Positions 4,526-12,796 of a DNA stretch of 29,448 nucleotides are shown here, piece after piece. Origin of the DNA: a virus. Each line of letters begins with the position of its first letter. Position 1 is the stretch's first letter. The position numbers and the translations under genes are program-made. Below the pieces are notes generated by a model. It was not told where the DNA came from, ran no database searches, and saw nothing but the letters and a program-made list of their open reading frames with translations. Location of the stretch: positions 1 through 29,448 of the IMG/VR virus record IMGVR_UViG_3300022848_000043; one strand, written 5' to 3'.

Positions 4526-4600
4526 TACCGATGGCGGGAATTGAACCCGCGACCTGACTGCAATACGCGCTGCCTGCTCTCCCAACTGAGCTACACCGGA
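4526..4600 (-). tRNA. tRNA-like gene with irregular anticodon arm
   Basis: The minus strand shows a 7-base acceptor (TCCGGTG pairing with CATCGGT at six of seven positions, end pair T-T), a perfect D-arm (GCTC AGTTGGGA GAGC) and a perfect T-arm (GCGGG TTCAATT CCCGC). The 25 bases between them are 2-3 longer than normal and form no standard 5-bp anticodon stem with a U33, so the anticodon cannot be read. No CCA is encoded. It may be a degenerate tRNA, a tRNA mimic or a diverged phage tRNA. Confidence 0.6.
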
Positions 4601-8075: not shown

Positions 8076-8349
8076 AAGCAATTATGTCCGGCGTGTCCAC
8101 TAAAACTTTTACCCCAGGCCCTTCCAGCCTGATGCGCCGAATGAAGCTACTGTGCATAGAGTGATGGCGTGTGTTGCCATCCCAACGGACCAATACCGCG
8201 CGGCTATGGCGAGACGCTCCAGAGGTCAGCACCCCCTGGCGGTTGCCATTCGGATCGGCGCGAGGGAAAATGTTGCATTCCATAGCTTTTTGAGACAGGG
8301 CCACGATATCGCCCTCGTGGAAATCGGCGAAGTTTCTTGTGTCGGTCAT
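8074..8349 (-). CDS. Hypothetical protein, 91 aa, possible SH3-like barrel
   Basis: The product starts MTDTRNFADFHEGDIVALS and has short beta segments ending in RAVLVRWDGNTRHHSMHSSF, a pattern typical of small SH3/KOW-like barrels. Function unknown. The start at 8349 is set by the GGGAG of the repeated junction sequence, six bases upstream; longer in-frame extensions overlap the previous gene and are unlikely. It is the last gene before the gene-free stretch. Confidence 0.65.
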   Translation of the reverse strand: MTDTRNFADFHEGDIVALSQKAMECNIFPRADPNGNRQGVLTSGASRHSRAVLVRWDGNTRHHSMHSSFIRRIRLEGPGVKVLVDTPDIIA

Positions 8350-8362
8350 ATCAATCTCCCTT
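8347..8362 (-). repeat. Gene-junction repeat, copy 1
   Basis: On the minus strand AAGGGAGATTGATATG: it encodes the last residues of the upstream gene (KGD stop), supplies the GGGAG ribosome site and ends in the next gene's ATG. The same 16 bases recur at 8579-8594 and 9087-9102. Confidence 0.85.
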
Positions 8363-8581
8363 GCTGCCATCACCCGTGCGTTGAACCGTGATTTCAAAGT
8401 CTGCCAAGGTAAATTTTGCCAAATCAGCGCCAGCATTCCGCACCGCATCAACCAGGCATATCGCGGCCCCCACGCCAAGAACATTAAGACCGTCAATGCC
8501 TTTTTGGGCATCATCTTTGATCCAGTACACAAACTTTTCGCCCGCGATAACACTCATCAGCCAGTTTCTAAACCGATCCAT
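8351..8581 (-). CDS. Hypothetical protein, 76 aa
   Basis: Starts MDRFRNWLMSVIAGEKFVYW and contains a hydrophobic stretch (GLNVLGVGAAICLVDAV) that could be one membrane helix or a buried helix. It ends DGSKGD, the tail dictated by the junction repeat. Not recognised. Its ATG (8581) is set by the second repeat copy. It lies between the Dam-like methylase gene and an SH3-like small gene. Confidence 0.65.
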   Translation of the reverse strand: MDRFRNWLMSVIAGEKFVYWIKDDAQKGIDGLNVLGVGAAICLVDAVRNAGADLAKFTLADFEITVQRTGDGSKGD

Positions 8582-8594
8582 ATCAATCTCCCTT
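8579..8594 (-). repeat. Gene-junction repeat, copy 2
   Basis: Same 16-base sequence as at 8347 and 9087. Similarity to copy 3 extends further upstream on the minus strand, covering the DGNKGD/DGKKGD codons. Confidence 0.85.
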
Positions 8595-9089
8595 ATTGCC
8601 ATCCAGCGATTTGCGCCCAACCGGCCTTGACACCATCCCCAAAGACTTGGCGCGAAATAAAGCGGCAACGGCCCTTTGGCCGCTAGCGAGCAAAACGGTT
8701 CCGGTTCCGGGGCTTTTCCCGACCGTCCCATCTGGGCGCTCAAACTTGATCTTTGGTGATACGCAAAGATACGCATCCGAGCGCGGCACAAACTCCTGAT
8801 ACCAAGGCGCGGACGTTCGGTCAGGAACCAAAGCTATGCCGTTCCCGTGTTCAAAGAATTTAGCCAGCCAGATACGTTTAGTGCGCTGGTGGCCAAAAGG
8901 GGGGTTCATCCAAACAAAGCCATACCAAGGAACACCTAACCAAGATATCAAAAAATTATTAGTTGGGACGTAACGCGGGCCTCCGATAGGCGATGCCGGG
9001 TCTAGGTCGAATCCCTCGCCTAGCGCGTCAAATATGTATTTTGGGGTGTACCACTCGTCACTTTCTCCCGCCGCTTCGTACGATGCCAT
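8583..9089 (-). CDS. Phage DNA N6-adenine methyltransferase, Dam-like
   Basis: 168 aa, matching the phage N-6-adenine-methyltransferase (DNA_N-6-adenine_Mtase) family. It begins ESDEWYTPKYIFDALG, has FDLDPAS at residues 27-33, and a catalytic NPPF motif at 62-65 (FVWMNPPFG). The product methylates adenine in DNA, probably shielding phage DNA from restriction. Start and C-terminus (DGNKGD) are both defined by junction repeats. The compact size without a target-recognition domain is usual for this family. Confidence 0.88.
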   Translation of the reverse strand: MASYEAAGESDEWYTPKYIFDALGEGFDLDPASPIGGPRYVPTNNFLISWLGVPWYGFVWMNPPFGHQRTKRIWLAKFFEHGNGIALVPDRTSAPWYQEFVPRSDAYLCVSPKIKFERPDGTVGKSPGTGTVLLASGQRAVAALFRAKSLGMVSRPVGRKSLDGNKGD

Positions 9090-9102
9090 ATCAATCTCCC
9101 TT
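9087..9102 (-). repeat. Gene-junction repeat, copy 3
   Basis: Third copy of the same 16 bases, at the start of the Dam-like gene; the upstream gene ends DGKKGD. Confidence 0.85.
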
Positions 9103-9297
9103 CTTACCATCCAGCGCAGCAGATCCGCGCTTTAGAATGCGATCAATTATCCCGGCCCCACGCCACGCGCGGACAAGCGTGCGGCTGTAATCAACGGGAA
9201 CATTGCCCCCGGTGCGAACGTGGATATCCTCAACGCCCCAACCATCGCGCAGAGCGTCTGCAACAAGGCGGGTGCGGGCGGCAGCGTTATCCATCAT
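9091..9297 (-). CDS. Small HTH-like hypothetical protein, 68 aa
   Basis: Helical and Ala/Arg-rich; the stretch LRDGWGVEDIHVRTGGNV could be a winged or simple helix-turn-helix. It ends DGKKGD, the tail shared by three consecutive genes here. Start at 9297 or one codon later; both overlap the end of the VRR-NUC-like gene by 8-11 bases. Function unknown, possibly DNA binding. Confidence 0.6.
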   Translation of the reverse strand: MMDNAAARTRLVADALRDGWGVEDIHVRTGGNVPVDYSRTLVRAWRGAGIIDRILKRGSAALDGKKGD

Positions 9298-9607
9298 TCA
9301 CCCCCTTAATCACCATTCGCGCGCCGATAGCGGTCAGGGCCTCGTCTGTGCTGCGAACCGTAGTGACCTGGCCCTTCCATCCCGCGTGCCATTCCACCTG
9401 GTTAGGCCTTAGCTCCCGGTCCTTCTTGTTCACAGCCGTCGGGTCTTTAATTTCCATCAGCACGTTAGCACCGCGCCACCCTACGATTATGTCAGGCACG
9501 CCGCGCCCTACGTCCGCCAGATCGGCAACGGTTGCCCCTACGCCCCTTAGCGCCGCCACAATGGCAGGGTGATTGCCGTCTTTGCGCGCTCTTCCTCGAT
9601 AGGTCAT
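9287..9607 (-). CDS. VRR-NUC / PD-(D/E)XK nuclease-like protein, 106 aa
   Basis: The core GVPDIIVGWRGANVLMEIKD contains the nuclease triad D39, E52 and K54 in the spacing of the VRR-NUC fold. These act as structure-specific nucleases in recombination or replication. The ATG at 9607 overlaps the upstream methylase stop (ATGA); a longer in-frame start is disfavoured. It sits between two methylase genes. A type of modification-dependent or Holliday-junction nuclease is possible; specificity cannot be read. Confidence 0.75.
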   Translation of the reverse strand: MTYRGRARKDGNHPAIVAALRGVGATVADLADVGRGVPDIIVGWRGANVLMEIKDPTAVNKKDRELRPNQVEWHAGWKGQVTTVRSTDEALTAIGARMVIKGVNDG

Positions 9608-10134
9608 GTGCGCCCCCAGAAAACAGTCGGTCCAATGTGATTGGCGTCGAACAGATACCACGCGCAGTTATCCAGCCCGCTAGTCCCGTTCTGCATCCAC
9701 GACACGCGCCCGACGCTCACAATCTTGACGCACTTTACCATGTAAGGCGCGGCCTGTCGGGTGTGCATCCAATCGGCATCAAACAGCAACCAAGTCGGAC
9801 GTATTGCCGAAAAACGGTCAATCATCGGGTGTAATATCTGGCGAGTCCAAGGCGGGTTTGTTATGATATGACTGCCCGCTGCAAGCATAGATATTGGGGC
9901 TGTCAGCGCATCAAGCTTGTCAATGTCTTCATCGCGCGGATCAATGTCAAAAGCCTCTACGCAGCGATGCCCCGCTATGTAAAGAGGCTCGGTTATAGCC
10001 CCAAATCCCGCGCACGGCTCCACATATTTACACTTTGGCGGTAAATGCGGCAACAGGGGCAAAACCGCTGATGATGGCGTATCATAGGCATCCTGCTTGC
10101 GGCGCTTGAACTTTCCGGGTGCGCGTTTGGTCAT
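9604..10134 (-). CDS. SAM-dependent DNA methyltransferase-like protein, 176 aa
   Basis: Rossmann-type methylase motifs: motif I YVEPCAGFG (37-45), an acidic strand end DIDP (63-66) and motif IV ITNPPW (91-96). The NPPW motif suggests an N6-adenine or N4-cytosine amino-methylase. No clear target-recognition domain is visible, so it may be a small phage methylase or a divergent member with another substrate. The ATG overlaps the stop of the 28-aa ORF carried in the direct repeat (ATGA). Confidence 0.75.
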   Translation of the reverse strand: MTKRAPGKFKRRKQDAYDTPSSAVLPLLPHLPPKCKYVEPCAGFGAITEPLYIAGHRCVEAFDIDPRDEDIDKLDALTAPISMLAAGSHIITNPPWTRQILHPMIDRFSAIRPTWLLFDADWMHTRQAAPYMVKCVKIVSVGRVSWMQNGTSGLDNCAWYLFDANHIGPTVFWGRT

Positions 10135-10217
10135 GGTGTCTCAGCCTCCATTGAATTTATGACCCCGGCACGGCCCGAACCGTTAGACGATTTTCCGCGC
10201 CGGGGCAGGCTGGTCAT
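10131..10217 (-). CDS. 28-aa peptide gene inside direct repeat copy A
   Basis: Starts MTSLPRRGKSSNGSGRAGVI. It overlaps the cytosine MTase stop (TAATG) and the next methylase start (ATGA). A near-identical 27-aa frame exists in copy B, differing at two internal residues (N/I and S/A) plus the terminal codon. Basic, function unknown. The conserved frame with start and stop overlaps at both copies supports real translation. Confidence 0.5.
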   Translation of the reverse strand: MTSLPRRGKSSNGSGRAGVINSMEAETP

Positions 10218-10240
10218 TATTGCCCAGCTTTTCGAATTTC
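10138..10240. repeat. 103-bp direct repeat, copy A
   Basis: 99 of 103 bases match 11021-11123 with no gaps. It spans the last codons of the cytosine MTase (ANEIRKAGQ stop) and nearly all of the 28-aa ORF. Confidence 0.95.
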
Positions 10241-11020
10241 GTTTGCGTCAACGTCTGTCTCAGCGGCTAAGATTGCGTTGCCAATTAGTTCGGGGATTTG
10301 GGGCACAACGGCGTTTCCGAATCCGTTAAGCTCGCCCAAGAATTCGGGAAACCCATCGCCATCGCGTAAAGTGAAGCTGTCATTCCCCGGTCCCATCCCA
10401 GAAGAATAGGGCGGTAGCAAAGATGTTCCTGCTTTCCATTGTCCATCACTTTTCGGACTGTGGCCGCAGAGAAGGTCGCCTGTAAACTTGACTTTAGTGG
10501 GGTAGGCCACAATCCAGACACGCTCTCTGCGATGGGGCGCGCCCAAGGCCGCCGCCGGTATGTTTTCCCATTCCGCATCATACCCGCACTCGGCCAGGTC
10601 TGACAAAATTCGGCCAAACCATCCCCCTCGTTGTTCACTTGGGCCACTAAGCAACGCTGCGACGTTCTCCACGATGACGTATCGGGGTGATAACTCGCCA
10701 ATAAGTCGGACGATTTCGGACCAGAGGCCCGAGCGGGTGCCTTCTTTGATGCCAGATTGCTTTCCAGCGAAGCTAATGTCTTGGCACGGGAACCCGCCTG
10801 TGATGACATCAACGGCAATTCCATTCCGTCGAAGAATGTCGCCTGTGAGTTTGGTAACGTCTTCATAGCAAGGCACCTCCGGCCAATGTTTCGCCAGAAC
10901 CTTACGCGGGAAAGGCTCAATTTCGCAGAATGCAACCGTTTCAAAACCGCCGGTGCGCTCAAGCCCAAGAGAAAACCCGCCAATACCGCTAAACAGGTCC
11001 AGAACACGCAGCTTTGTCAC
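10217..11020 (-). CDS. DNA (cytosine-5) methyltransferase
   Basis: 267 aa with the canonical C5-MTase motifs: I LDLFSGIGGFSLGLE (7-21), IV GGFPCQDIS with catalytic C79, VI VENVAAL (117-123), VIII RRERVWIVA (164-172), a shortened target region, and X GFGNAVVPQIPELIG near the end. It methylates cytosine C5 in DNA and is likely an anti-restriction enzyme. I chose GTG 11020 (VTKLRVLDLFSG), which overlaps the 27-aa ORF stop as GTGA. A longer frame to 11125 would only translate repeat sequence in a different frame. Its C-terminus reads into direct repeat A. Confidence 0.93.
   Translation of the reverse strand: MTKLRVLDLFSGIGGFSLGLERTGGFETVAFCEIEPFPRKVLAKHWPEVPCYEDVTKLTGDILRRNGIAVDVITGGFPCQDISFAGKQSGIKEGTRSGLWSEIVRLIGELSPRYVIVENVAALLSGPSEQRGGWFGRILSDLAECGYDAEWENIPAAALGAPHRRERVWIVAYPTKVKFTGDLLCGHSPKSDGQWKAGTSLLPPYSSGMGPGNDSFTLRDGDGFPEFLGELNGFGNAVVPQIPELIGNAILAAETDVDANEIRKAGQ
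10285..11007 (-). CDS. 240-codon ORF overprinted on the cytosine MTase (doubtful)
   Basis: An open frame on the same strand, shifted relative to the MTase and almost entirely inside it. The product has segments such as SSWRTSQRCL, EFCQTWPSAGMMRNGKTY and SGLWPTP. I recall these as recurring in phage proteins of unknown function near or overlapping C5-MTase genes. No ribosome site of its own is obvious; a frameshift from the MTase would be needed or an internal start. It may be only a by-product of conserved MTase codons. Confidence 0.25.
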   Translation of the reverse strand: MFWTCLAVLAGFLLGLSAPAVLKRLHSAKLSLSRVRFWRNIGRRCLAMKTLPNSQATFFDGMELPLMSSQAGSRAKTLASLESNLASKKAPARASGPKSSDLLASYHPDTSSWRTSQRCLVAQVNNEGDGLAEFCQTWPSAGMMRNGKTYRRRPWARPIAESVSGLWPTPLKSSLQATFSAATVRKVMDNGKQEHLCYRPILLGWDRGMTASLYAMAMGFPNSWASLTDSETPLCPKSPN

Positions 11021-11100
11021 GTCTCGGCCTCCATTGCATTTATGACCCCGGCACGGCCCGAACCGATAGACGATTTCCCGCGCCGGGGCAGGCTGGTCAT
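11017..11100 (-). CDS. 27-aa peptide gene inside direct repeat copy B
   Basis: Starts MTSLPRRGKSSIGSGRAGVI and stops as GTGA on the cytosine MTase start. Just upstream, a 13-codon frame beginning MSIEANEIRKAGQ ends as TAATG on this gene, echoing the C-terminus of the MTase in copy A. It is the paralog of the 28-aa ORF at 10131-10217. Function unknown. Confidence 0.5.
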   Translation of the reverse strand: MTSLPRRGKSSIGSGRAGVINAMEAET

Positions 11101-11123
11101 TATTGCCCAGCTTTTCGAATTTC
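11021..11123. repeat. 103-bp direct repeat, copy B
   Basis: Direct-orientation partner of copy A, offset 883 bp; four substitutions. It covers the ANEIRKAGQ tail and nearly all of the 27-aa ORF, placed upstream of the MTase start. Confidence 0.95.
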
Positions 11124-11142
11124 ATTAGCCTCTATGGACATT

Positions 11143-11391
11143 TCACTCATTCCCAAGCCCCCGGAATACCCGCCGCAACACAAAAGCGCGGACCGTCGAC
11201 ACCACGAAAAAGAGCGCTGTTATTCCCGCCGACTGCCACGCGGTAAAGCCCAGCACCGTGAGCGTGATGACCCATGACAACACAAGCCCGATAATCGCGT
11301 TGGCTAGGGCCTCGGCTGCGTCTAACCCCATCAGTTCAGCCCTCTTAGCCGTCTCATGCGCTTGGCACACCGCCCGCCGATCAAGGCGCAC
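11143..11391 (-). CDS. Small two-helix membrane protein (DUF7220-like)
   Basis: Two hydrophobic segments are visible (IIGLVLSWVITLTVLGFTAW and SAGITALFFVVSTVRAFVL), preceded by AHETAKRAELMGLDAAEALA and followed by an Arg-rich end. This layout matches small phage inner-membrane proteins of the DUF7220 type as I recall them. Start either GTG 11391 (used here, keeps the ETAKRA helix) or ATG 11331, which overlaps the upstream stop as TGATG. Function unknown. Confidence 0.6.
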   Translation of the reverse strand: MRLDRRAVCQAHETAKRAELMGLDAAEALANAIIGLVLSWVITLTVLGFTAWQSAGITALFFVVSTVRAFVLRRVFRGLGNE

Positions 11392-12189: not shown

Positions 12190-12225
12190 TAACGTGCTGT
12201 CAACCTTCGCTTAACGTGTTGACAG
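12190..12225. promoter_or_regulatory. Operator-like inverted and direct repeats between divergent operons
   Basis: A perfect inverted repeat, CTGTCAAC (12197-12204) and GTTGACAG (12218-12225), has centre spacing of 13. A direct repeat TAACGTG at 12190 and 12212 is 22 bp apart, two helical turns. The right arm contains the -35 of the plus-strand promoter; the left arm contains TTGACA on the minus strand. Binding here could control both directions. Confidence 0.6.
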
Positions 12226-12246
12226 GGATTTGTGGGCGTGTATTGT
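12219..12246 (+). promoter_or_regulatory. Sigma-70-like promoter of the rightward operon
   Basis: TTGACA, 16-base spacer, TATTGT. It lies 27 bases upstream of the first rightward ATG and its -35 sits inside the inverted repeat. Confidence 0.65.
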
Positions 12247-12272
12247 GAGTGCAGCAAATAGGAGCAGAGACA

Positions 12273-12458
12273 ATGACCACCCCTACCAAATTCACCACCG
12301 AAGAATTCGGCGCTTTGCCGCGTGATGAGAATTACCGCATTGGTTGTCTTGATGCCGTTTACGCGCGGATGACAGGTTTTCAGATAATGCAGCTTCAAAT
12401 AGATGATTTTGCCCGCGTTGAAACGCTGAAATCACCGTTGGGGGTTTACGACCAATGA
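12273..12458 (+). CDS. Hypothetical protein, 61 aa, first gene of rightward operon
   Basis: Starts MTTPTKFTTEEFGALPRDEN with AGGAG upstream. Acidic, no recognised domain. It is promoter-proximal, and its stop overlaps the next gene (ATGA), so it likely initiates coupled translation of the recombination operon. Phages often place small takeover peptides here, but nothing specific can be read. Confidence 0.65.
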   Translation: MTTPTKFTTEEFGALPRDENYRIGCLDAVYARMTGFQIMQLQIDDFARVETLKSPLGVYDQ

Positions 12459-12796
12459 CCCGCGCAACCAAACCCGCAACGCTGTTCATCTGCATTGTTG
12501 ACTACAACGGCCCTACGGCAGTTGTTGGATACCTCGGCGAACCGCATCGCCTTTTCGATGATGCCTGCGATGACTACGTTGAGGCCCGAGATAACGACCG
12601 GCCCGCATTCGTTCTGCGCCTTAACCTGAATGAAGGCACCCACGAGGATATCACCGGAGACTGTCACGACAGCATTGCACATTGGATACACCAGCGGGGC
12701 AAGACTGCCCCAGATTGGTTGCAGAATGATACCGACAGTTTTAGCGGCTCTAATTGCTGGGGGCCTCATTGCCGCTGGGGCAATTTCCTTATCTAA
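12455..12796 (+). CDS. Hypothetical protein, 113 aa
   Basis: Starts MTRATKPATLFICIVDYNGP; an acidic alpha/beta protein with a Trp/Cys-rich C-terminal end (SNCWGPHCRWGNFLI). The last 70 bases overlap another frame that encodes a membrane helix, so the true end of one of them may differ. No family recognised. Starts as ATGA on the preceding gene. Confidence 0.55.
   Translation: MTRATKPATLFICIVDYNGPTAVVGYLGEPHRLFDDACDDYVEARDNDRPAFVLRLNLNEGTHEDITGDCHDSIAHWIHQRGKTAPDWLQNDTDSFSGSNCWGPHCRWGNFLI

Follow-up and report, generated by a model that had tools for sequence, protein, structure and literature searches.

The window analysed here, 29,448 nt of the viral IMG/VR record IMGVR_UViG_3300022848_000043, carries on its minus strand an island of DNA methylase genes. 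In minus-strand order, the island consists of a DUF7220 gene, a 16-codon frame, one copy of a direct repeat (W2), a C5 methylase gene, the other copy of the repeat (W1), a second methylase gene, a 124-aa gene and a 68-aa gene. The DUF7220 gene (positions 11143-11391) and the 68-aa gene (9091-9297) form conserved left and right borders; compared with a related phage described below, the former has 84% amino-acid identity within a stretch of DNA that is 92.5% identical, and the latter has 90.6% DNA identity over 223 bp. The C5 cytosine DNA methyltransferase (10217-11020; PF00145, E-value 2e-43; phrog_363) has 267 residues and a GTG start. The second DNA methyltransferase (9604-10134; phrog_799, E-value 4e-29) has 176 residues and lies downstream of W1. 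On the plus strand, the window encodes a single-strand annealing-type protein, a phage recombinase (13394-14149; phrog_3290, E-value 4e-54). A tRNA-Tyr gene with anticodon GTA lies on the minus strand at 4526-4600.

The two repeat copies, W1 (10138-10249) and W2 (11021-11132), both on the minus strand, are in direct orientation, 883 bp apart and identical at 105 of 112 positions without a gap. A preliminary description had claimed an ungapped direct repeat around the cytosine methylase with 99 matches in 103 positions, and this is what we find over that shorter span. The pair is the longest direct repeat of the window, the next family being 31 bp long, and it includes a stretch of 46 bp free of mismatches. 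The repeat is a real feature; an assembly artefact is an unlikely source, because the copies differ at 4-7 positions (a divergence of 4%) and because the same two-copy layout, around another gene, is present in two further assemblies.

Homology to other C5 methylases extends no further than the inner edge of the repeat on either side. The methylases of other phages align only to 10258-11014, the space between the two copies, and their native C termini end a few residues past AILAAE, near the repeat border, where the window protein continues as TDVDANEIRKAGQ, encoded by the repeat. The final residues of the window methylase, ANEIRKAGQ, are thus repeat-derived. An open reading frame for 302 aa reads through the repeat from 11125, but this is probably not the real start, since relatives are homologous only from about 11014-11020 onwards; the GTG at 11020 is probably the start used. 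The ANEIRKAGQ tail noted earlier is present in both copies; in W2 it ends the 16-codon frame (11100-11150, minus strand; MSEMSIEANEIRKAGQ followed by a stop codon), which overlaps the stop of the DUF7220 gene. From its second methionine this frame begins MSIE, resembling helicase N termini (M-S-I/L-x-x-Y-R); the window phage may therefore once have carried a helicase gene, since lost, of which the frame would be a remnant. A candidate origin of ANEIRKAGQ at the 3' end of a helicase gene was not upheld: identity to the flank of La, a copy of the element in the related phage, is 15/25, but P = 0.08 outside the shared core, so this origin stays only a suggestion.

Each repeat copy contains a conserved intercistronic element of about 88 nt, hereafter referred to as E (10143-10230 in W1 and 11026-11113 in W2), that forms two hairpins and includes a Shine-Dalgarno sequence as well as an open, coupled frame. 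In W1 the Shine-Dalgarno sequence GGAGG precedes the 176-aa methylase, and in W2 the same motif precedes the GTG of the C5 methylase. The short frames are those of the preliminary description: 28 codons in W1 (10131-10217) and 27 in W2 (11017-11100), both on the minus strand, entered at TAATG and ending in a stop that overlaps the start of the next methylase (ATGA and GTGA, respectively). With two copies from the related phage, described below and termed La and Lb, four copies of E from two phage lineages are available. The frame is open in all four. In three of them its stop overlaps the next start, and their length differences are multiples of three; in the fourth there is no stop before the next gene, and the frame fuses with that gene in frame. 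The Shine-Dalgarno sequence is always just downstream. Judged from these sequences, openness and coupling of the frame appear to be kept.

All four copies fold alike, into hairpin 1, which presents the stop and restart codons in its loop, a hairpin 2 of 12 bp that contains a small inner helix, and then an unpaired Shine-Dalgarno sequence. The stem of hairpin 1 varies among the copies (GCTGG/CCAGC, GTAGG/CCTAC and GGCGG/CCGCC). Over the four copies, 97.6% of the cells are paired and three pairs have changed on both sides, compared with zero or one in a slid control. This support leans on hairpin 1, partly within flanking sequence; hairpin 2 alone has one two-sided change and is not distinct from a letter-shuffle control (136/500), and the 5-bp hairpin 1 of Lb arises by chance in about 9% of shuffles. 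Between W2 and La there are 14 substitutions in 69 columns, and all 21 pairs are kept (P = 0.002 under random substitution). By contrast, the same substitutions cause 7 amino-acid changes where 8.9 are expected (P = 0.17), about as many as under random substitution, and constraint on the RNA is therefore better supported than constraint on the peptide. The earlier reading of a 'mini-gene' in the repeat is doubtful at the protein level: the frame appears to be kept open and coupled, but a conserved peptide is not supported, and one copy's frame runs into the next gene. A role as promoter or terminator was also discarded: neither window copy has a sigma-70-type promoter-like site, and the strong hairpin has no T run and is not among the terminator-like sites.

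The related phage was located by a search with the DUF7220 protein and is present in two metagenome assemblies, L163 and L164, whose contigs agree fully across 6,817 bp. Backbone identity between this phage and the window is 92-95% (5-8% divergence). Its island, which likewise lies between the DUF7220 gene and the 68-aa gene, holds a helicase, an N4/N6 methylase (PF01555, E-value 2e-23), a small gene and a RusA-like gene, with one copy of E before the N4/N6 methylase (La, with the helicase upstream) and one after it (Lb). The same element thus brackets a different methylase at the matching place, which supports the earlier proposals of a repeat-bracketed methylase cassette and of a mosaic modification module. 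W1 agrees with Lb at 62/63, more closely than with W2 in the same genome (60/63), so that the upstream gene has seemingly been swapped at a constant downstream linker; on the simplest reading of these sequences, the downstream linker is common to both phages and the upstream gene was replaced. One pair of variable sites occurs in all four combinations across the copies of E, as recombination would give, although repeated mutation is possible. The copies look long-lived, because their divergence of 4% is near that of the backbone.

A second repeat also lies at gene borders. J, a 31-bp stop/start repeat, has three copies on the minus strand (J1, 9086-9116; J2, 8578-8608; J3, 8346-8376), found by repeat search against 0.01 expected by chance, at the borders of a Dam-like gene and a 76-aa gene. 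Every window copy joins a DG(K/N/S)KGD tail and its stop (DGKKGD in J1) to a Shine-Dalgarno sequence and an ATG. L163 has a single J, whose left flank matches that of J1 (90.6%, 223 bp) and whose right flank matches that of J3 (39 bp, 92%), and lacks the Dam-like and 76-aa genes there. In the early operon, the start region (AGGAGCCGAGACAATGACCA; plus strand, 12205-12520) is single-copy in the window and repeated in L163 (L166:10480-11120), where copies of ATGACCCGCGCAAC, which occurs once in the window, enclose an additional 86-aa-type gene.

We favour, as the probable explanation, that E works as a structured linker for translational coupling and, being directly repeated, also offers homology for the exchange of single-gene cassettes. 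The RNA of E would present the stop and restart codons of the junction in the loop of hairpin 1, followed by the 12-bp hairpin 2 and an unpaired Shine-Dalgarno sequence, and the short frame would bridge the stop of one gene and the start of the next, letting ribosomes that end the first gene pass to the second. As E sits in a direct repeat around single methylase genes within a variable island, copies of about 100 bp could serve as homology for the phage annealing recombinase, and the gene between them could be replaced, gained or lost with expression unbroken. Recombination across homology this short is plausible, because the phage encodes a single-strand annealing-type protein. The helicase/methylase junction that E fills in L163 (below) and J, as a parallel case, also count in favour of this account.

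A less likely account, which nevertheless deserves weight, is plain cassette mosaicism, in which a local duplication or a helicase deletion left E behind as a neutral remnant that acts merely as homologous sequence and has hairpins that are just a feature of GC-rich intergenic DNA. There are only two copies per genome, in keeping with this account, and duplication alone can bracket a methylase cassette: in an unrelated phage (L059:4926-7049), an Ime4-like and C5 methylase cassette is bracketed by a 92-bp direct repeat of 96.7% identity, unrelated to E, that is a duplicated 5' end of the next gene downstream. However, neutrality accords poorly with the retention of E by both phages at gene borders that differ, with substitutions that preserve its base pairs, with a Shine-Dalgarno sequence always just downstream of it, and with three of four frames that vary in length by multiples of three while the stop still overlaps the next start.

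The copy La marks a filled junction. In a table of 42 helicase loci, L163 among them, the methylase motif HNSDC starts 23-48 nt past the helicase stop in 38 of the 41 other loci, whereas in L163, where E fills the junction, the distance is 129 nt; two of the 42 have no such methylase at that place. In L203 the distance is 199 nt, a 50-aa-type small gene (L203:5381-5545) being inserted at the junction that E occupies in L163. Alignment places a clean insertion of about 93 nt at the L163 junction, and by eye its flanks carry a 5-base direct repeat, TACGA; the 5' ends of the copies of E are unequal. Such a clean insertion against junctions that are empty in 38 of 41 relatives, together with the copies at several junctions, the small size and the hairpins, would fit mobility. 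E might then be a mobile or copyable RNA-structured element of about 90 nt that targets the exact stop/start junctions of phage operons for insertion, keeps coupling through its own restart frame and marks exchangeable methylase cassettes, a proposal we consider improbable; a tiny mobile element that enters such junctions by transposition in trans, or by an RNA-based route, is more doubtful still. Against mobility, neither conserved terminal inverted repeats nor a target duplication was identified, the 5' ends differ among the copies, the upstream part being absent from Lb, and E was found in one lineage and one island only.

Searches for E elsewhere returned the same elements. A covariance model built from the four copies found only those four beyond chance among 80 C5-methylase, 80 second-methylase and 77 helicase loci. 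In IMG/VR, exact and degenerate patterns of E matched only the L163 and L164 contigs; a first pattern, bound to the window's own hairpin 1, had no match. BLAST found no E in phage and plasmid collections, and the Rfam 15 covariance models gave no match over E up to an E-value of 1. Four matches in a genome scan of GTDB, in unrelated taxa, were set aside as unsupported by the covariance model.

The earlier suggestion of a phase-variable module, that is, reversible or frequent deletion of the methylase inside one phage population, could appeal to the phage recombinase and to direct repeats that share 46 bp without a mismatch, but it is very improbable, as deletion between direct repeats is not reversible, the copies are nearly as diverged as the backbone, and the relatives found have neither the anticipated single-E allele, nor an inverted allele, nor a recombinant junction between copies of E.

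The swapping of single genes at phage gene borders poses an old question, that of targeted recombination at boundary sequences versus random recombination followed by selection. The coupling-linker reading bears on it: if E couples translation, this would explain how a border can promote recombination and yet leave expression unharmed. One phage lineage here offers several start-associated repeats (E and J) for which empty, single-copy and multi-copy states can be matched, and these repeats adjoin methylases, which protect against restriction.

Among known systems, boundary sequences lie at phage module borders and are explained by homologous recombination at the border (cited as a model in PMC3029335 and PMC3233612). 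Like them, E, and the J repeat too, lies exactly at gene borders beyond which related phages have different genes. E departs from boundary sequences in its greater length, its folding as RNA, its coupled frame and its Shine-Dalgarno sequence, and in having two copies per genome around a single gene. The promoter early stem-loops (PeSL) of T4-type phages were reportedly described by Arbiol in 2010 and Comeau in 2014. PeSL are stem-loop modules that recur between small genes and for which a part in gene shuffling has been proposed (as cited in PMC4503421). E resembles PeSL in having several copies between shuffled genes (both phages have two copies, and the genes enclosed differ), and differs from them in having neither a sigma-70-type promoter match nor a terminator-like T run, and in lying inside an operon with a coupled frame.

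The ESAS/SAS repeats of cluster K mycobacteriophages lie beside the translation starts of some non-structural genes, half of them with an inverted repeat just upstream, and their authors also propose them as recombination targets (PMC3203893). SAS is 13 bp long and present in 11-19 copies, whereas E has about 88 nt and two copies; according to those authors (PMC3203893), the ESAS inverted repeats do not support pairing as RNA, whereas E does. By direct reading, the sequence of E differs from the 13-bp SAS GGGATAGGAGCCC with its 17-bp inverted repeats. The ultra-small mobile elements of mycobacteriophages (MPME) are also, like E, small insertions that contrast with empty sites in close relatives, but they are 439 bp long with terminal inverted repeats (PMC3029335), whereas E has about 90 nt and no such repeats were identified in it. 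E thus appears to be a variant of the boundary sequence, PeSL and ESAS kind that is new in form.
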